DNA from: Sphingomonadaceae bacterium
Lineage (GTDB): Bacteria; Pseudomonadota; Alphaproteobacteria; Sphingomonadales; Sphingomonadaceae
Direction: 5' to 3'
NCBI GenBank assembly: GCA_021732525.1
Contig: JAKFUU010000004.1
Coordinates: 1-64,000, forward strand
Length of the DNA: 64,000 nt
The notes under the pieces: model-generated
The model's database searches: none
What the model was told of the DNA's origin: nothing
The model's input: the letters and a program-made list of their open reading frames with translations, nothing else
Made by a program: the position numbers and the translations under genes
In this document: positions 11,621-51,832 of the stretch, in pieces
Position numbering within the stretch: position 1 is the stretch's first letter
Layout: every line of letters begins with the position of its first letter

Positions 11621-13056
11621 ATAGCCGCAAAATCCTTCTTGTCGAAGATGATCCATCGATTGGCATTGTCATTTCTGCGGGCCTGGCCGCCGAAGGGATC
11701 GACACCGAAATATGCGATAGCATCGCCTTACGCGATGCCGCCTTGGCCAGCGCGCGTTATGATTTGATGATCACCGATGTCATCCTGCGCGATAGCGACG
11801 GATTGGCCAATCTGGCCCCCGTTAAAGCGGCACATCCCGATATGCCGATTATCGTTATTTCGGCGCAAAATACCTTGGAAACCGCGGTGCGGGCCAGCGA
11901 AATTGACGCATTTGAATATTTTCCAAAGCCGTTCGATCTCAACGAATTGATCATGGCGGTAAAGCAAGGGATGGACCGCCGGTCGCGTCAATCGGATCAA
12001 ACCAGCAGCTTGGTTGAGGCCAATATGCCGATGGTTGGGCGCAGCGCCGCGATGCAGGAGGTATATCGCATGGTCGCCCGGTTGCTGCGCAATGATCTGT
12101 CGGTGTTGATTTTGGGCGAAAGCGGTACGGGCAAAGAGTTGGTTGCCGAGGCGATCCATAATCTTGGCCACCGCAAAACCGGGCCATTTGTCGCGGTCAA
12201 TATGGCGGCGATCCCGGCCGAATTGATCGAATCGGAATTATTTGGTCACGAAAAAGGCGCCTTCACCGGGGCGGTGGGGCAGGCGATTGGCCGTTTTGAA
12301 CAAGCGCAGGGCGGCACGTTATTTCTCGATGAAATTGGCGATATGCCCAAACATGCGCAAACCCGGCTATTGCGGGCGCTGCAAAGCGGGGTGATCAGCC
12401 GTGTGGGCGGTAAGGCCAGCATCCGTTTGGATGTGCGGATTATCGCGGCAACGCATCAAAATTTGGAACAGCAAATTGCCGCCGGAAAATTTCGTGAAGA
12501 TTTATTTTACCGGTTGAATGTGGTACCAATCGCTATGCCGCCGCTGCGCAAACGGCCCGAAGATATTGCTTTGTTGGCGCAGCATTTCTTGGGGCTTGCG
12601 GCAAAAGAGGGGCTGCCCTTGCGGCGTTTGGACGGTGGTGCGATCGATTGCTTGTCGCAGATGGGCTGGCGCGGCAATGTTCGCGAGCTTAAAAATCTGA
12701 TTTATCGGTTGGCGCTGGTTTCGCGGGAGGATGTCATTTCCGAAGCGACCATATTGCAGACGGTTGAACCTTCCGAATCCGCTGAACCATCGGCCGAAGG
12801 ATGCAGTTTCGACGCAGCGGTAACGCAGTTTCTTGGCACAAGCCAAACGCGCGGCCATCAAAAACAGATTTATCCGCGCGCTCTGGCCGCTTTTGAATAT
12901 CCGCTGCTCAAAACCATAATGAAACAGGCGCGGGGCAACCAGCTTAAAGCCGCCGCATTATTGGGGATTAATCGCAACACCTTGCGGAAAAAACTGTTGG
13001 AACATGGCTTATCAGGGTTTGGAACGGGGACGGGAACAGCCGAAGGCACCGGGTGA
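11617..13056 (+). CDS. ntrC: Nitrogen regulation response regulator NtrC
   Basis: A 479-residue sigma-54-dependent activator. Receiver domain with phosphoacceptor Asp54 (LMITDVILRD), AAA+ domain with Walker A GESGTGKE (167-174) and an intact GAFTGA loop (214-219) needed to touch sigma-54, and a C-terminal Fis-type helix-turn-helix (QLKAAALLGINRNTLRKKL). It should turn on ammonium assimilation and alternative nitrogen source genes. Translation is coupled to ntrB. Five bases after its stop the sequence enters a composite repeat that separates it from ntrY. Confidence 0.95.
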   Translation: MNSRKILLVEDDPSIGIVISAGLAAEGIDTEICDSIALRDAALASARYDLMITDVILRDSDGLANLAPVKAAHPDMPIIVISAQNTLETAVRASEIDAFEYFPKPFDLNELIMAVKQGMDRRSRQSDQTSSLVEANMPMVGRSAAMQEVYRMVARLLRNDLSVLILGESGTGKELVAEAIHNLGHRKTGPFVAVNMAAIPAELIESELFGHEKGAFTGAVGQAIGRFEQAQGGTLFLDEIGDMPKHAQTRLLRALQSGVISRVGGKASIRLDVRIIAATHQNLEQQIAAGKFREDLFYRLNVVPIAMPPLRKRPEDIALLAQHFLGLAAKEGLPLRRLDGGAIDCLSQMGWRGNVRELKNLIYRLALVSREDVISEATILQTVEPSESAEPSAEGCSFDAAVTQFLGTSQTRGHQKQIYPRALAAFEYPLLKTIMKQARGNQLKAAALLGINRNTLRKKLLEHGLSGFGTGTGTAEGTG

Positions 13057-13061
13057 GCCGT

Positions 13062-13288
13062 TTAGGCTGTGTTGACATTCAAATGCTCAATTTTTCATAA
13101 AACAATATTGTCATTCCCGCGCAGGCGGGGAACGCAGTGATCGCAGATCAATCCATCACCCGGCATCGAATTTTATACTGCGCGACCGTGTAAACTTAGC
13201 GCTCAGGTGATGGATTCCCGCCTGCGCGGGAATGACGAAGCTTTCTATATCAGAGAGATAACGCTTGAATATCAACACCACCTAGAGC
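13062..13288. repeat. Composite nested palindromic repeat, copy 1 (between ntrC and ntrY)
   Basis: Outer flanks begin TTTAGGCTGTGTTGACATTC and end near TTGAATATCAACACC; the outer ends are imperfect inverted repeats of each other. Inside are arms GTCATTCCCGCGCAGGCGGG (13110-13129) and the inverse (13216-13236) around a core at 13153-13213. Copy 2 lies at 17146-17347: its flanks run in the same direction, but its core matches this one only as the reverse complement. Copy 1 also carries about 20 extra bases between the left arm and the core. No gene is seen in 13057-13458; the stretch is this repeat, the 13282-13389 repeat, and a 69-base ntrY leader. Confidence 0.88.
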
Positions 13289-13389
13289 ATTGCGCGAAAA
13301 AGTGGGAACCGGTTTTTCGCATAAAGCGATGCGACAACGAAGTGATAGAGTGGGCGGTGTGTTTCAGATTTCACGCAGCGCGCTCTAAC
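13282..13389 (+). repeat. ~107-base CTAGAGC-ended repeat, copy 1
   Basis: Starts CTAGAGCATTGCGCGAAAAA and ends at GCGCGCTCTAA, so the tips are short inverted repeats. A second nearly full-length copy in the opposite direction lies at 51727-51832 upstream of aceA; the two agree at most positions by eye. A shortened relative is at 17099-17148. It abuts the composite repeat without a gap and sits 69 bases before the ntrY start. Confidence 0.85.
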
Positions 13390-13458
13390 CCGCTTCATTG
13401 CGACAAGAACATTGATTTTGTGCTTTTCAAGCAACGGTTTTACTGCAATAGTGTCCTA

Positions 13459-15699
13459 ATGGCAACAGATGCGCTGAATGATCGCCCGACGCTGATGCGG
13501 CTTTACCGCAAAGGGCTTGCGTCTTTTGCCGATTGGATCGGCAATGAACGTTCGGTCCAAACTTTAGAAATCGGCAGCGTTGCGGCGATTATCCTAATCG
13601 GCATTTTTACGGTCAATCTTTTATCCAATCAAACGGGCGATACCGAACCGCTGTCTCCGGCGATGACGGCGTTCCTTCTGGTGGCCAATCTGTTGCCCGC
13701 TACTATCTTATTGGTCATGATCGGCCGGCGGATGGCGCTGCGCAGGGCCAGGCGTGTCAATGCGGACAGCAAAAAGGGATTGCATGTTCGGTTGGTCGCG
13801 ATATTTTCGCTAATCTCGGCGACGCCGACATTGTTGCTGGTAATATTCGCCTCGCTATTGTTCCAAAGCGGGGTTCAATTTTGGTTTTCCGGCACGGCGA
13901 GAGGCATATTGGAAAATGCCGGCGAATTGGCGTCAGGATATAATCAGGAAAAAATGCGCGATGTGGGCGAAGAAACCGCGACCATGGCCAATGATTTCCG
14001 CAATTATTTGAACCAAACATCAGCCGACGACCCGGAATTTCTCAAAGCCTATTTTACTCAGGTTTTGAACCGGAAATTGAGCGAATCCGCGATTATCACC
14101 ATAGCCGGCGACGGCAGCCAAAATGTCGCGGCGGTCATATCGCCCAATGAGGAGCGCAAGGGCGAATGGATCGACGCGGAATATATTCGCCGGATTGACA
14201 CGGGCGAAAATATGGTTGTTGCGATAAAAAATGATCAAATCATCGCCATCACGCAAATTTTTGAAGAACCGCGATCCTATCTATATGCCAGCCGCGCCGA
14301 GACCGTGCCGACATTCCGCCTGGGTGCCAAGGCGCAATCGGTGCTTCGGGATTATCGCGCCATGGAACGGCGATCGCGAAGTTTGCAAATTCAGTTTAAT
14401 GCGGCGCTCTATCTCATCTCCCTGCTGATCATCGGGGTCACGGTATGGGTGGCGTTGATTGTCGCCGACCGATTGGTAAAGCCGGTGACCCAGCTTGTGG
14501 CCGCGGCCCAAAAAATTGCCGATGGCGATTTGGCCGCGCGCGTCGATGTAACCGATTTACGCGCCGATGAGGTTGGGTTTTTATCGCAATCTTTTAACCG
14601 GATGACGCAAAGATTGGAGAGTCAAACCGGTACGTTAATGGCGGCCAATCGGCAATTGGATGATCGCCGCGCGTTCATTGAAACGGTTTTGGAATCGGTA
14701 ACCGCCGGGGTTATCAGCCTGGATCCGCAAGGAACGGTGCGGCTGGCCAACTCCACCGCGGAGAGGTTGCTTTCGGGCAAGCGCGACACGATCGTTGGCG
14801 AAAAATTCAGCGAAATTGCCCCGGAAATGTCGGATATGATCGGCAAGGGGCAAAACAGTGCCGTTTTGCAACTGGGCGGCGGCCCCGAACCGCTGACCAT
14901 TGCGGTCAAAATTGTGACCGACCTGCAAGGCAGCGTGGTGACATTTGAAGATATCAGCCAGCAATTGGCGGATCAACGCCGCGCGGCTTGGTCCGATGTT
15001 GCCCGCCGGATTGCGCATGAGATTAAAAATCCGTTGACCCCGATTCAATTGGCCGCCGAACGGTTGCAACGCCGTTTTGGCAAACAAGTCAAAGAGGGCG
15101 GCCCGATATTCGAACAGTTAACCGGCACAATCATTCGGCAGGTCGGCGATTTGCGCAATATTGTCGATGAATTTTCGGCCTTTGCGCGCATGCCCAAACC
15201 GTCATTTCGCAAGGAAGATCTGAATGACATTATTGGCCGCGCGATATTCCTATATGAAGTGGCGCATCCCGATATCCGTTTTGTCTATAACCGTCCTGAA
15301 ACCACGCCTTTTTTAACTTGCGACCGGCGGCAACTGGGTCAAGCCTTTACAAATATTATGAAAAATGCGGTTGAGGCAATTTCGGAAAATGCGGTTGAAA
15401 ATGGTTGCATAACAATTGACCTTGCCGCCGACGATGACCGTGTCCGCGTTTGTTTCCGCGATAATGGGCCGGGGCTTCCCGAACAACGGGAGCGGATCAT
15501 CGAACCTTATGTGACAACGCGAACCACCGGTTCAGGCCTGGGTCTGGCGATTGTTCACAAAATTGCCGAGGAACATTTCGCGGAAATTAGCTTTGGCGAC
15601 GCGCCAGACGGCGGCGCCGAAATTCGCATCGATTTTTTTCCATCCATCATCGCGCAGCGAACAGGGGACGATTTTCAAGCTGAAAACAGCAAAAAATAA
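13459..15699 (+). CDS. ntrY: Nitrogen regulation membrane sensor kinase NtrY
   Basis: A 746-residue membrane histidine kinase, partner of NtrX. Hydrophobic helices are at about 37-57, 69-89, 111-136 and 313-337, with a periplasmic sensing part between the third and fourth. Then come HAMP (about 338-390), PAS (about 405-500), the phosphoacceptor His520 in ARRIAHEIKNPLTPIQ, and an ATPase domain with NIMKNAVEAI and GSGLGLAIV. The frame is open back to 13207, but that extra part translates the repeats, so I start at ATG 13459. No good ribosome binding site precedes it, and the repeats may have displaced the original leader; ATG 13495 is an alternative. Confidence 0.92.
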   Translation: MATDALNDRPTLMRLYRKGLASFADWIGNERSVQTLEIGSVAAIILIGIFTVNLLSNQTGDTEPLSPAMTAFLLVANLLPATILLVMIGRRMALRRARRVNADSKKGLHVRLVAIFSLISATPTLLLVIFASLLFQSGVQFWFSGTARGILENAGELASGYNQEKMRDVGEETATMANDFRNYLNQTSADDPEFLKAYFTQVLNRKLSESAIITIAGDGSQNVAAVISPNEERKGEWIDAEYIRRIDTGENMVVAIKNDQIIAITQIFEEPRSYLYASRAETVPTFRLGAKAQSVLRDYRAMERRSRSLQIQFNAALYLISLLIIGVTVWVALIVADRLVKPVTQLVAAAQKIADGDLAARVDVTDLRADEVGFLSQSFNRMTQRLESQTGTLMAANRQLDDRRAFIETVLESVTAGVISLDPQGTVRLANSTAERLLSGKRDTIVGEKFSEIAPEMSDMIGKGQNSAVLQLGGGPEPLTIAVKIVTDLQGSVVTFEDISQQLADQRRAAWSDVARRIAHEIKNPLTPIQLAAERLQRRFGKQVKEGGPIFEQLTGTIIRQVGDLRNIVDEFSAFARMPKPSFRKEDLNDIIGRAIFLYEVAHPDIRFVYNRPETTPFLTCDRRQLGQAFTNIMKNAVEAISENAVENGCITIDLAADDDRVRVCFRDNGPGLPEQRERIIEPYVTTRTTGSGLGLAIVHKIAEEHFAEISFGDAPDGGAEIRIDFFPSIIAQRTGDDFQAENSKK

Positions 15700-15708
15700 A
15701 GGCAATAT

Positions 15709-17100
15709 ATGGCGTTAGACATTTTAATTGTGGATGATGAAAAGGATATTCGGGATCTGGTCGCCGGGGTTCTGGATGATGACGGCTATCAAAGCCGGAC
15801 GGCAGCCACCGCCGATGCCGCTTTGGCGGCGGTTGACGAGCGTTTGCCATCGCTGATTTTGCTCGATGTTTGGCTGCGCGGGTCATCGATGGACGGGATT
15901 GAATTGTTGCAGCTGTTAAAGCAAAAACATCCCAAAATTCCGGTGATCGTCTTTTCCGGCCACGGCAATATTGACACCGCCGTCGCCGCCGTGCCGCATG
16001 GTGCCGTCGATTTTCTGGAAAAACCGTTTCAGGCGGAAAAATTGCTGCATCTGGTATCGAAAGCCACCGAAACGACAAGATTGCGGGAAGAGAATGAAAC
16101 GCTGCGCGCCAAAATTGGCCATGCCGAAGAGTTGACGGGATCATCAGCGGCAATTAATCATGTCCGCGCTACGCTTAAGAAGGTTGCATCCACCGGAAGC
16201 AGGGTGCTGATCACCGGGCCGGCGGGCGTCGGCAAAGAGGTCGCCGCGCGTTTGCTGCATAATTGGAGCCCGCGAGCGGATGCGCCCTTCGTTTCGGTTA
16301 GCTCCGCCAGACTGGCGTCGGATCGCTTTGAGGTTGAGCTTTTTGGCATAGAGGAAAACGGCGTTTTGATGAGCGCGGGCATGCTGGAACGCGCCAACGG
16401 CGGAACGATTTTCCTCGATGAGGTGGCCGATATGCCATTGACCACGCAAAGCAAGATCTTGCGCGTGCTGACCGATCAAAGCTTTACCCGCGTGGGCGGA
16501 AACCGCCAAATACGGATTGACGTTCGGTTCATATCGGCAACCGCGCGCGATTTGCAGGTCGAAATAGCCGAGGGCCGGTTTCGCGAAGATTTATTCTATC
16601 GTTTGAATGTCGTTCCCGTTGAAATCCCGCCATTATCGATGCGGCGAGAGGATATTCCCGATTTGGCGCATTATTATGCCGCGCGCTTCACCGCCGATCT
16701 GCGCGTTGCCGCGCCGGAGATATCGGGTGATGCCGTCGCGGCCTTACAAGCCTGCGAATGGCCCGGCAATGTACGTCAGCTGCGAAATATCATCGAACGA
16801 ACCATCATTTTGGCCCCGGCGGACCGGCTAAAACAGATTGACGCCGATATGCTGCCCGCCGAAGTGACCAATCGCTATGAGAGTTCGGAGCAGAATATCA
16901 CCTCATTAATGGCTGCACCGCTGCGTGAAGCGCGCGAATCCTTTGAGCGCGAATATTTGCAGGTCCATATTAAGCGTTTCTCCGGCAATATCTCGAAAAC
17001 CGCAAATTATGTGGGCATGGCAAGATCCGCGTTGCACCGCAAGCTGAAATTGCTTGGCATCAGCATGCGCAAAAATGGCGATGAGGGTGAAAACCTTTAG
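15709..17100 (+). CDS. ntrX: Nitrogen/redox response regulator NtrX
   Basis: A 463-residue NtrC-family regulator following ntrY by nine bases. The receiver carries Asp53 (LLDVWLRG). The AAA+ domain has a Walker A variant GPAGVGKE (170-177), but where sigma-54 activators have [13 protein letters not shown] this protein reads ELFGIEENGVLMSAG (about 210-224), so the GAFTGA loop is gone. It therefore probably works at sigma-70 promoters, as reported for alphaproteobacterial NtrX. The C-terminal Fis-type helix-turn-helix is present (NISKTANYVGMARSALHRKL). The stop codon TAG lies in the left end of a repeat element. Confidence 0.93.
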   Translation: MALDILIVDDEKDIRDLVAGVLDDDGYQSRTAATADAALAAVDERLPSLILLDVWLRGSSMDGIELLQLLKQKHPKIPVIVFSGHGNIDTAVAAVPHGAVDFLEKPFQAEKLLHLVSKATETTRLREENETLRAKIGHAEELTGSSAAINHVRATLKKVASTGSRVLITGPAGVGKEVAARLLHNWSPRADAPFVSVSSARLASDRFEVELFGIEENGVLMSAGMLERANGGTIFLDEVADMPLTTQSKILRVLTDQSFTRVGGNRQIRIDVRFISATARDLQVEIAEGRFREDLFYRLNVVPVEIPPLSMRREDIPDLAHYYAARFTADLRVAAPEISGDAVAALQACEWPGNVRQLRNIIERTIILAPADRLKQIDADMLPAEVTNRYESSEQNITSLMAAPLREARESFEREYLQVHIKRFSGNISKTANYVGMARSALHRKLKLLGISMRKNGDEGENL

Positions 17101-17148
17101 AGTATCGCGCGAAAAAGTGGGCACCGGTTTTTCACGCGATGCTTTAGG
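17099..17148 (+). repeat. Short variant of the CTAGAGC-ended repeat
   Basis: About 50 bases resembling the first third of the 13282 element: TATCGCGCGAAAAAGTGGGC, then ACCGGTTTTTCACGCGATGC. It includes the ntrX stop codon at its left edge and abuts the composite repeat copy 2 on the right, the reverse of the order seen before ntrY. The whole 17101-17532 interval holds repeats only; no gene is seen there. Confidence 0.7.
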
Positions 17149-17347
17149 CTGTGTTGACATTCAAATGCTAAATTTTTCATCAAACAATATTGTCATTCCC
17201 GCGCAGGCGGGAATCCATCACCTAAGCGTTAAGTTTACACGGTTGCGTAGTGTAAAATTCGATGTCGGGTGATGGATTCCCGCCTGCGCGGGAATGACGA
17301 AGCCTTCTAAATCAGAGATATAACGCTTGAATATCAACAGACCCTAG
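17146..17347. repeat. Composite nested palindromic repeat, copy 2 (after ntrX)
   Basis: Same flanks as the copy at 13062-13288 and in the same direction. The inner arms form a perfect 31-base inverted repeat (17192-17222 against its inverse ending at 17297), surrounding a short unique core. The 61-base core at 17215-17275 matches the copy 1 core at about 55 of 61 positions, but only after reverse-complementing. The two copies thus frame ntrYX as direct repeats with inverted centres. Confidence 0.88.
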
Positions 17348-17486
17348 AGCGTGATGACATATAACTGATCCGTCATTGCGAGGAGCGCAGCGACGAAGCA
17401 ATCTAGGGTTGTGCGCCGGTGACACTGGATTGCCGCGCTTCGCTCGCAATGACGAGGAGAATCAATTTAACGTCATCACTCTCTAG
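17344..17486. repeat. Nested palindromic repeat (GTCATTGCGAGGAGCG type)
   Basis: Outer tips CTAGAGCGTGATGAC and GTCATCACTCTCTAG are inverted. Inside them, arms CGTCATTGCGAGGAGCGCAG (from 17371) and GCTTCGCTCGCAATGACG (to 17454) form a second inverted pair. The inner arm type is a widespread bacterial repeat. The outer tips resemble those of the 13282 element, suggesting that an inner palindrome has landed inside an outer one. Confidence 0.78.
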
Positions 17487-17532
17487 GGGTTTGGGCCGCA
17501 TCATCAACCTTGAACCCACCGGTTTTCGGCCG

Positions 17533-18684
17533 TTATTTTTTGGGCGTCAGCTTCAATAGGCGGCCCGATGAACCATCCTCCAATAGCCATAAGGCGCCAT
17601 CGGGCCCGGTTTCAACCTCACGAATGCGCGCGCCCATTTTCCATTCATCGGCCTTTACGGCATTTGCTCCCTTAATTTGAACCCGCACCAAAGCCTCACC
17701 GCTGAGCGCGCCGAGAAACATTGAATTTTTCCATGCAGGGAAGAGATCGGCATTGTAAAAGGTCAACCCGCTTGGCGAAATGGCGGGGTTCCAAAAGGCT
17801 TTGGGCGCTGCAAATCCGTCGCCCGCGCGGTGATCGGGAATATCGCGGCCATCATAATGATTGCCGTTGGATACTTTGGGATAACCATAATTGGCCTTGG
17901 GCAAGACGAGATTCAGCTCATCCCCGTGCGCGGGACCCATTTCTTGATTCCACAGCTGGCCTTTGGCATCAAAGGCCAGGCCAAGCGGGTTGCGATGGCC
18001 GAGCGACCAAATTTGGGAGCGTACCGCGTTGCCTTCGACATAAAAGGGATTGTCTTTCGGGATGCTGCCATCGGGATAAAGCCGGACGATCTTGCCCAAA
18101 TTGCTGTTCATATCTTGTGCAGGATCGAATTTTTGCCGTTCGCCCGATGCGATGAATAGATATTTGCCATCGGGCGAAAAAGCCAAGCGGTGACCAAAAT
18201 GGCCGCGACCCGTTACTTTGGGATATTGGGACCAGATGACCTTGAGACCTTCGAGTGCTGCGCCGCCCGCCGCCGCCATATTAAGCTTTGCCATGCCAAC
18301 AACCGCGCCGCGGGTGTTATTTTCGCTGGCTTCGGCCCAGCTCAAGTAAATATGGCCGCTGGCCGCAAAATCGGGGGCCAATATCACGTCGCCCAAACCC
18401 CCTTGGCCGCCATAATCAACCTTGGGAATATTCTTAACTTCAACGGCCCCGCTATCTTTGCTCCATAGCATCAGCTTGCCATTTTTCTGTGTGATCAAGG
18501 CCGCAGAACCACCCGGCAAAAATGTCATCGCCCAAGGTTCGTTGAAAGTCGCCACGGCTTCCATGTTAAAGGGCGTATCGTTCGCGCCAGCCGATAGGTT
18601 GGCAGAATTGGCGTTGGAACCGCTCGGCGCGCAGCTGATAACGGCGACCGCGAAAGTGGCAAGCAAGGGGGCGGGGAGGCGCAT
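17533..18684 (-). CDS. PQQ-dependent sugar dehydrogenase-like lipoprotein
   Basis: A 383-residue exported protein of the glucose/sorbosone dehydrogenase beta-propeller family (aldose sugar dehydrogenase, YliI type). The signal sequence ends in AVISCAPSG, so Cys18 is a probable lipidation site. Family landmarks include FNEPWAMTFLPGG near the start, GGQGGLGDVILAPDF, SLGHRNPLGLAFDAKGQLW with the catalytic/PQQ region, and the end ETGPDGALWLLEDG. It should oxidise aldose sugars in the periplasm if PQQ is available. Whether the cell makes PQQ cannot be told here. It is divergent from rimP across a 200-base gap. Confidence 0.88.
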   Translation of the reverse strand: MRLPAPLLATFAVAVISCAPSGSNANSANLSAGANDTPFNMEAVATFNEPWAMTFLPGGSAALITQKNGKLMLWSKDSGAVEVKNIPKVDYGGQGGLGDVILAPDFAASGHIYLSWAEASENNTRGAVVGMAKLNMAAAGGAALEGLKVIWSQYPKVTGRGHFGHRLAFSPDGKYLFIASGERQKFDPAQDMNSNLGKIVRLYPDGSIPKDNPFYVEGNAVRSQIWSLGHRNPLGLAFDAKGQLWNQEMGPAHGDELNLVLPKANYGYPKVSNGNHYDGRDIPDHRAGDGFAAPKAFWNPAISPSGLTFYNADLFPAWKNSMFLGALSGEALVRVQIKGANAVKADEWKMGARIREVETGPDGALWLLEDGSSGRLLKLTPKK

Positions 18685-37841: not shown

Positions 37842-39224
37842 TCAGCCCTTGGCGACCAGTCGCTTGATGAAACTGCCTGCGTTATTTTGCAAAGCGGAAA
37901 TTTGCTCGGTCACCTGATCGAAGCCGCGTTCCAATCCACCAATTTCCGACACGACATTCTCGGTATCGCTACGGATCGCGGAAATGGTGCTCGACATCAG
38001 ATCTGCGGCAAGCGCTGTTTCATCCACCGATGCGGTGATCATGGTTACAGTCTGCGCCTGATCTTCCATGGCTCGGCGGATGTTATCGGCCGATACACGC
38101 ACTTCTTTAACCGTTTCCCGAATGGAATTATTCGATTCAACGGACGCTTTCGTTGCGGTCTGGATCGCGGAAATTTTTGTTGCAATTTCATCGGTCGCCG
38201 ATGCCGTTTGATTGGCCAGGCTTTTTACCTCTTGCGCGACAACCGCAAAGCCCCGGCCTGCATCGCCGGCTCTGGCCGCTTCGATGGTGGCATTGAGCGC
38301 AAGCAAGTTGGTTTGGCCGGCGACCTGACGGATCAACGCTAATATTGAATCGATGGATTTTGCTTGTTCGGACAATATGTCGGTGGCGACAACGCTCGCA
38401 TCGGCCTGTTCAACCGCTCTATTCGCGATCATCGCCGAATTTTCCACCTCGATGCGCGCATCTTCAATCGCCCGGATCAAACCAGCGGCTGTTTGCGCCG
38501 CTTCGCGCATCGCAATTGCCGATTGCTCGGACGCCGCAGCAACTTCGGATGCCTTATTGAGCATTCCTTGCGCCATTTTGGAGCTATTCACCGCCTGCTG
38601 GCGGATCAGCTTCGATTGTTCCGCTACATCATGTGCGGTTGATCCAATCTCGCTTTGAAACTGCTCGCCTTGTTGTTGTTGCCGGGCCATTATTGTTCGT
38701 TCCTTGCTAATTGCATAACAATGTCCGATCAATGCCAGCTCAATCGCAGTAATGACGGACACGCATCTTGACATGCGAGCAAATCGCGGGAAATCATCAT
38801 GACAATATTGCTCGATCAACGATAAAATATAAGGCATTGACCGGGTTGTTGCGGCCAATAAATGTTCCAAGGGCACACCCCCCTTGCACGCCCAGTTTAT
38901 CTGCTCAAACAGCATTGAGATGGATTCGACGCTGGTTAAATCAGAATAACGATGTTCAAAATATTTTTGAATCGCCGCAACGCCAACAACATATTGTTTT
39001 GAATTGGTTTCGGTTACGATGCCTTCGCTCACCCAGAATGACCAGTAATTTTCGCTGATGCTGGCCAAGTCACCTTGAACCAATTCCAAAATTTCTTTGG
39101 CATCCTGCCGCATTTGACTGTCGAAATCATAACGTCTCAAGAAAGACTTGACGTCAAAGTCGGCAGAATGGTTATCTTGTATCATAGTCTTTTCCATTTT
39201 TGCATTCTCACGCAACAAGCTCAC
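37842..39224 (-). CDS. Soluble methyl-accepting chemotaxis-like receptor with degenerate globin-like sensor domain (1)
   Basis: A 460-residue protein with no membrane helix. The C-terminal half is an MCP signalling hairpin: the tip reads [18 protein letters not shown] (about 291-308) followed by [21 protein letters not shown]. The N-terminal ~170 residues are helical and by eye follow the globin-coupled sensor layout (as in HemAT), but the position of the proximal heme histidine seems to be Trp. The GTG at 39224 overlaps the stop of the upstream homologue by GTGA; ATGs at 39197 or 39185 are alternatives. No che genes are nearby, so its signalling partner is unknown. Confidence 0.8.
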
Positions 39225-40534
39225 GCGACAAGTTTTTCGACAAATTGTTGGCCGCGTTGATTCAAATCTGACAATTTTTTATCCGCTTTTACAACGCCGT
39301 CGGATAAGGCCATAATTTGGTCAAAAATTGTATGCGTGTCTTTCGAGATCGATGCGATGGTCCCCGACATCATATCGGCGGCCAAAGCGGTTTCATCGAC
39401 GGCGGCGGTTATCGCCGTTACACTGCCCGACTGGCGGTCCATCGCCTGACAAATGCGTTGCGAGCTTTGGTGGACATTGTCGACGCTGTTGCGGATCGAA
39501 ATGGTGGCTTGCAAGGCCTTCTGAGTTGCATTCTGGATGGCCTCAATTTTCGCACCAATATCGTCGGTTGCCTCCGCGGTTTGGTTAGCGAGGCTTTTCA
39601 CCTCTTGGGCGACCACCGCAAAGCCCCGGCCTGCATCTCCTGCTCTGGCCGCTTCGATGGTGGCATTAAGCGCCAACAGATTGGTCTGGCCCGCAATTTG
39701 GCGGATCAAACCCAAGATGGATTCAATGGCCGTCGCTTGCTGCGACAATGTTTCTGAAATTGCCACGGCGATCCGGGCTTGCTCGTTGGCATCTGATGCA
39801 ATTGCTGCGGCGCTTTCCATCTCTTGTTTGGTATCATTAATAACGGCAATCAGCGAACCAGCGGTTTGCGCAGCCTCACGCATTGCAGCGGCGCTTTGTT
39901 CGGCGGCGGTGGCAACTTCGGATGTCTTTGCGAGCATTCCATTTGCCCCGGCACCGGCGGCGGCTGCATTGTCGCGCAATGCTTTGCTTTCCTTGGACGA
40001 CATTTCGATGCTTGCGGCGATCTCCTCACGATAGGCATGGGCCAGCTCAGCCTGATTCTTAAGGGCATCTTGCTCTGCCTGAAATGCATAGGAATCCGCC
40101 ATCATAGTATTTTCAAACATGGACGCCCGCATGATGGCATCGGCAAAAAGTTGCAATTGCGGTGTGTCATCGTCCAATTTTTCGCGTAAAATAGCCATCG
40201 TCATCTTTTGCGCTGCGCCAGATGCCATGGCAAAGCTTATAAAAGATATCCCCATCGTCTTTGCCTGTTGCCCGCGAGTTTCAATTGACATCAGCCAATC
40301 GAGATTATCCGCATGACGATATTTCATCTCGACAAATTTGCTGCTTTTGGCAATATTTTCGGCCAGTTTTTCTCCGCCCCATTCAAGATTGACGACCGGA
40401 TGTTTGGTCCATTCATTCCATAATGCAGCAGCAATTTTTTGCTCGTCACCACGCAATACCTCACCAATCTGCTGCATAGCAGAGATCAACGTCTTGTCTT
40501 CCTTAACAAAATTCATGATATCTTGGCTGCTCAT
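39221..40534 (-). CDS. Soluble methyl-accepting chemotaxis-like receptor with degenerate globin-like sensor domain (2)
   Basis: A 437-residue paralogue of the next gene and first of the pair. No transmembrane helix is visible. The signalling hairpin tip is [18 protein letters not shown], and the C-terminal halves of the two proteins are very alike, while the N-terminal ~180 residues differ strongly. Again the helices fit a globin-coupled sensor layout only loosely, and an Ala seems to stand where the heme-binding His should be. It is divergent from sdhC across a 181-base AT-rich gap, which should hold both promoters. Confidence 0.78.
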
Positions 40535-51726: not shown

Positions 51727-51832
51727 TAGAGCGCGCTGCGTGAAATCTGAATCACACAGCCCGCTCTATCGCTTTGTTATCGCATCGCTTTATGCGAAAA
51801 ACCGGTTCCCACTTTTTCGCGCGATGCTCTAG
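51727..51832 (-). repeat. ~105-base CTAGAGC-ended repeat, copy 2 (aceA leader)
   Basis: Read on the minus strand this is CTAGAGCATCGCGCGAAAAA... to ...CACGCAGCGCGCTCTA, almost the same as the element at 13282-13389 and in the opposite direction. It lies from 25 to 130 bases upstream of the aceA start, so it could be part of the aceA leader mRNA or its promoter area. Confidence 0.85.

Follow-up and report, generated by a model that had tools for sequence, protein, structure and literature searches.

Two composite repeats beside ntrYX in an alphaproteobacterial draft genome: a putative CGTC-1 REP dimer nested in a MITE-like element, with one probably inverted spacer

In G000, the draft genome of an alphaproteobacterium assembled as 68 contigs totalling 3.01 Mb, two composite repeats lie on either side of the ntrY and ntrX genes and are probably copies of a nested, dispersed, non-coding element in which the inner dimer is ancestral and the spacer of the second copy was inverted once between perfect arms. 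The window, meaning the whole stretch of 64,000 nucleotides that was analysed, lies within G000, and the five best named relatives of its ntrX come from Sphingomonadales and Sphingorhabdus MAGs. A sequence-only reading had placed two such repeats here, and both were recovered with refined boundaries at 13063-13284 and 17145-17346.

Copy 1 (13063-13284, plus strand) occupies the intergenic region between ntrC and ntrY and is an outer element that carries TA at each end and has the termini TAGGCTGTGTTGACATTC and GAATATCAACACCACCTA. Its left arm begins with the outer 20 nt of the left REP, GTCATTCCCGCGCAGGCGGG (13110-13129, plus strand), is interrupted by a 20-nt insert (13130-13149, plus strand) that has no second match in the window at up to 3 mismatches, and ends with the inner 11 nt, AATCCATCACC (13150-13160, plus strand). 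The 45-nt core or spacer follows (13161-13205, plus strand), oriented as in a third full copy at G000:C18:6271-6476, and then a 31-nt right arm that contains the right REP (13206-13236, minus strand). The 20-mer GTCATTCCCGCGCAGGCGGG has four matches in the window, all of them exact with up to 3 mismatches allowed, against 0.01 expected. Downstream are ntrY (13459-15699, plus strand; NtrY_N, HAMP, HisKA and HATPase_c domains) and ntrX (15709-17100, plus strand; response regulator and sigma-54 activator).

Copy 2 (17145-17346, plus strand) lies 44 nt past the ntrX stop and ahead of a convergent glucose/sorbosone dehydrogenase gene, the space between convergent genes being described as a usual position for REPs (PMC3733652). 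From the outside inward it consists of TA and GGCTGTGTTGACATTC with the rest of the outer end, a 31-nt left arm (17192-17222, plus strand), the 45-nt core (17223-17267, minus strand, inverted relative to copy 1 and to the C18 copy), a right arm (17268-17298, minus strand) that complements the left arm perfectly over 31 nt, as the sequence-only reading had reported, and an end of the same type in inverse orientation. The left arm comprises a REP with a TGTC tag, a ATTCCCGC stem, a GCAG loop and a CCA tail, plus 5 nt. Copy 2 matches its own reverse at 71 % of positions, so that the entire element is a weak palindrome, and as single-stranded DNA it has a predicted fold of -48.4 kcal/mol (z -14.07).

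By its published features the inner unit appears to be a head-to-head dimer of CGTC-1 REP palindromes, a feature of known kind whose inverted arms had been read correctly from the letters alone, and because the arms bear these REP features the "core" is taken as the dimer spacer. According to the passages on this family in Di Nocera, De Gregorio and Rocco 2013 (PMC3733652), CGTC-1 REPs have a CGTC (or TGTC/CCTC) tag, an 8-bp stem beginning with AT, a 4-nt loop and a CCA tail, occur mainly as head-to-head dimers with most spacers of 20-100 nt, largely in alphaproteobacteria, and apparently have no dedicated transposase. In each arm of copy 2 the sequence ATTCCCGC-GCAG-GCGGGAAT forms a short palindrome with an 8-bp stem starting with AT, and CCA comes after it; the tag outside it is TGTC on the left and CGTC on the strand of the right arm, and 55 nt separate the CCA tails, which fits head-to-head spacing. 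The likeness to the dimers of those passages thus extends over tag, stem, loop, tail, pairing, spacer size and an alphaproteobacterial host, and the complementary spacer ends seen here are also present in several published CGTC-1 dimers (PMC3733652). The difference is that the present dimer sits within a larger element whose ends are TGTGTTGACATTC. Nesting has a precedent in Halothiobacillus neapolitanus, in which CGTC-1 dimers are described inside 41-bp palindromes (PMC3733652), although the outer sequence there differs, and here some outer copies have lost or lack the spacer and carry just one REP. The passages on CGTC-1 dimers in the same paper (PMC3733652) contain no description of spacer inversion. 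A Y1_Tnp (RAYT) transposase was rejected as the mover, with no match in G000; among the 24 relatives of the same genus that were searched, 23 had none and one (G023) had matches, as did 6 of 16 genomes of other families. An Rfam scan of the window gave no matches at gathering scores and the tRNA scan beside it found no tRNA; at E<=1 the interval 13000-17600 contained two sub-gathering Rfam matches, whose starts (13275 and 17342) lie beyond the arms and cores. The Neisseria dRS3 and NIME mosaics are small palindromes in intergenic repeat mosaics. By description the present repeats are like them in being small palindromes of the same family within intergenic repeat mosaics, and unlike them in belonging to another genus; dRS3 has been equated with CGTC-1 (PMC3733652).

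The outer element has ends of the form TAGG(C/T)TGTGTTGACATTC, and its end motif, TAGGNTGTGTTGAYATTC, occurs at 16 places in the genome (<=2 mismatches; control 0) as terminal inverted repeats. By eye, TA stands at both ends of copies 1 and 2 and of the copies at C18, C3:148658 and C54, and may be a target duplication. IS5-type MITEs are short and non-coding, with terminal inverted repeats and TA at both ends. The outer element is likewise short and non-coding with terminal inverted repeats, has TA ends as judged by eye, and would on this basis be MITE-like. The only insertion sequence found with similar ends, an IS5-like element at G000:C30:28182-29048 with GGTAGTGTTTACATTC ends and two reading frames (DUF4096 and DDE_Tnp_1), does not match the outer ends exactly.

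Several other repeats and genes were recorded in the same region. A second dispersed repeat, GCGCGAAAAAGTGGG(A/C)ACCGGTTTTT, lies near both composites at 13292-13317 and 17107-17132 and again at 51797-51822; it occurs at 62 places in the genome (<=3 mismatches; control 0), and is overlapped by the sub-gathering Rfam match, BASRCI27 (13275-13445, E 3.6e-4). After copy 2, at 17372-17463, yet another palindromic repeat was seen by eye, consisting of GTCATTGCGAGGAGCGCAGCGACGAAGCAATC and a partial inverted match to it, making the space past ntrX a repeat mosaic. In five relatives (L107-L111) ntrX is followed by hfq, encoding proteins of 165-168 aa; the assignment was Pfam-tested in L107, whose protein has two matched Hfq stretches. 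Here (17100-18684) ntrX is followed by the convergent GSDH-family gene, and no convincing hfq match was found within the window. Two adjoining paralogous genes of 460 and 437 aa with long similar stretches, methyl-accepting chemotaxis-like by eye, lie at 37842-40534 on the minus strand.

The opposite orientation of the two cores, claimed by the sequence-only reading, was reproduced: of the 61 positions in 13153-13213, 55 agree with 17215-17275 when the latter is reverse-complemented and 37 when it is read directly, while the outer flanks run in the same direction (47/49 matching positions on the left, 44/50 on the right). Restricted to the strict 45-nt cores (13161-13205 and 17223-17267), the match is 39/45 inverted and 21/45 direct, compared with a mean of 11.4 and a maximum of 22 in 5000 shuffles scored in the inverted sense. 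A 208-nt query recovered three full copies in G000 (C12:13061, C12:17143 and C18:6271) plus shorter relatives. The core of the third full copy is oriented as in copy 1 (43/45 direct), and the copy 2 spacer matches each of these two at 39/45 in the inverted sense only, so that a clean inversion is seen in one of the three full copies. Every pair of full copies differs at 2/49 left-flank and 6/50 right-flank positions, a star pattern; the copy 2 spacer is about as distant as the right flanks, and is thus read as the same spacer turned round.

Two further copies, C3:148658-148780 and C6:14083, carry no spacer: where the dimer would sit in this outer element they have a single REP-like palindrome, GTCATTCCC..GGGAATGAC, the second copy being truncated shortly beyond the REP on its right side. 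All five outer-element copies found hold REP sequence at the same junction, and none is empty. More distant dimers within similar outer ends were noted by eye at C54:2549, C39:7143 and C3:80927, two of the three also by pattern. Because the five copies share the REP junction and the three full ones share the spacer, the dimer was probably not inserted twice and is most likely ancestral. Among 395 further genomes of the order, none matched the composite at E<=1e-14 (two candidates scored per genome); at 1e-10 there were matches in 8 of 60 relatives, covering all or part of the inner dimer (about positions 32-163 of the 208-nt query).

In the preferred reading, the CGTC-1 REP dimer would have been in place inside the outer element before the element spread, and the copy 2 spacer would later have inverted, once, between its perfect inverted arms, either by homologous recombination or by template switching on an extruded hairpin. 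Since each arm is itself palindromic, the two arms also align roughly as direct repeats, and in that register a sister event would delete the spacer and leave one REP; the spacers of C3:148658-148780 and C6:14083 may have been lost in this way. Both product forms, the inverted spacer and the spacer-less single REP, are present in one assembled genome. The spacer-less copies could instead be the older form. The inversion is probably genuine, present in cells rather than only in the assembly, and rare.

The dimer family was followed across the genus with a covariance model built from 19 aligned dimers. It matches 34 of 45 genomes of the genus at E<=1e-6, G000 among them, and the dimer widely stands alone; within G000 there are 49 matches at this threshold, both strands counted, as expected of a dispersed repeat. 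Compensatory changes on both sides were found at 10 of 31 predicted arm pairs, and could mean hairpin selection or homogenisation. The spacers share a directional motif, with an orientation-fitting score of 220 compared with 67 +/- 6 for shuffled sets. The set comprised 22 dimers, a few of them orthologs or near copies of one another, and the fit was restarted 300 times on the real spacers and 20 times on each of 20 shuffled sets.

Spacer orientation was then compared between species for 118 placed elements from among the matches listed, which formed 24 flank-sharing groups with 66 pairs. Left out were five of the listed places (three in G007, one in G027 and one in G034), nine loci from other genomes (L206-L208, L210, L211 and L213-L216), and copies 1 and 2 together with the stand-alone dimers of G000; pairs were dropped if they came from the same genome, had spacers below 8 nt, or had flank matches shorter than 120 nt or more than 150 nt from the element. 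Seventeen groups contained at least one pair with a conserved spacer (score >=0.4 per base), and all 40 such pairs had the same orientation. Of the remaining 26 pairs, the same orientation gave the better score in 18, exceeding zero in 10, and the inverted one in 8, exceeding zero in 5. The latter five pairs represent three sites (G027:C67 against G021, G007 and G034; G007:C20 against G027:C1; G036:C37 against G032:C41), with diverged spacers and inverted scores of 0.10-0.17 per base. In a background of 1511 non-orthologous long-spacer pairs the 95th percentile was 0.07 and the 99th 0.17, so that each of these scores is weak taken singly. At G027:C67 the flank is 97 % identical to G021 on the available side, the G021 contig ending 32 bases beyond the element, and the spacer is strongly diverged. 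Exchange of spacers, or an untidy inversion, suits the appearance of these sites better than a clean flip does, and, as their diverged spacers align better inverted, rare inversion or exchange in the genus is plausible on these alignments.

Arm perfection bears on the same point. A perfect arm run of at least 25 nt was found in 7 of 44 elements in conserved-spacer pairs. Perfect 31-nt arms occur in copy 2, in the C18 copy, and in both members of the ortholog pair G036:C37:4380 and G032:C41:16454, whose better inverted alignment is weak; at the other two candidate sites the longest perfect runs are 8-19 and 12-18 nt. These data agree only in part with an inversion that requires perfect arms, and perfect arms are just as much a hazard for assembly. 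The idea that the core flips between its arms, raised by the sequence-only reading, stands as a rare past event: an inversion between the arms best fits the sequence, and none of the 17 orthologous groups with recognisable spacers shows a flip.

An assembly effect, in which the assembler reversed the spacer in one copy, is possible and judged unlikely. On an inferred k-mer argument, k-mers that do not exceed the arm in length would not fix the direction of a spacer between perfectly inverted arms; copy 2 and G000:C18:6320-6426 both have perfect 31-nt arms in an assembly of 68 contigs, and the perfect-armed G036/G032 candidate comes from assemblies of about 150 and 280 contigs. Against this, ordinary-length reads would cover flank, arm and spacer, and separately assembled orthologs agree in all 17 groups with recognisable spacers, four of which have an element with a perfect arm run of at least 25 nt. 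Moreover, 6 of the 45 bases of the copy 2 spacer disagree with copy 1, and 6 with the C18 copy, so it was not simply borrowed from either.

Conversion by another copy paired in inverse register is quite unlikely; the palindromic arms would admit a donor either way round and the spacer would be overwritten. Quite different spacers do occur between flanks that are 87-97 % identical (G027:C67:66316 against G021, G007 and G034; G007:C20:10923 against G027:C1:155380), and two unlinked G007 loci have a near-identical spacer in common, but when seven genomes were searched for a donor of the G027:C67 element, nothing closer than its own orthologs was found, and in G000 no spacer other than those of copy 1 and C18 (39/45 each) comes close to that of copy 2. 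Inversion and conversion by an oppositely paired sister copy are indistinguishable from sequence here. The two G007 loci (L253 at G007:C14:33131 and L254 at G007:C2:88748) share this near-identical 44-nt REP-dimer spacer and a few flanking bases, which suggests recent movement or conversion of a CGTC dimer. At another intergenic site, G026:C64:52981 and G002:C16:14840 have REP dimers of different size class (107 and 84 nt) with closely matching junctions, which suggests spacer exchange or repeated insertion at that one site.

The proposal that a flipping switch controls ntrYX is very improbable. Both orientations do lie next to ntrYX in one assembled genome, but the repeat family is dispersed, orientation is constant between species wherever the spacer is recognisable, and no sigma-70 promoter-like site was found in either repeat region in a search of the sigma-70 type. 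Neither motif was seen beside ntrYX in related genomes: among 18 such loci (L096-L113, of which L100 and L107 are possibly one genome), the outer-end motif had no match, while the window as positive control gave back all of its sites. A lone match resembling the REP, with the full 4 mismatches allowed, fell inside the coding match of L102. That the inner dimer entered two outer repeats separately, at an identical base and with opposite orientation, is conceivable given the H. neapolitanus dimers reported inside palindromes (PMC3733652), but it is scarcely credible and was rejected on the shared spacer and shared REP junction.

Titles and abstract openings were searched for work on inverting REP spacers or on inversion across inverted repeats and gave no paper on REP spacers; one study (PMC3161906) reportedly concerns inversion in starving E. 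coli. As a caution, where a spacer lies between perfect inverted arms, its orientation may have been chosen by the assembler. More broadly, and tentatively, CGTC REP dimers could be recombinationally live, their self-palindromic inverted arms letting spacers invert, vanish or be replaced in place, most easily where the arms are perfect. If true, this would explain copy 2, the spacer-less copies and the three genus sites. For CGTC-type REP dimers, which apparently have no dedicated transposase (PMC3733652), an inverted spacer together with spacer-less sisters in one genome is a small clue that REP arms recombine.
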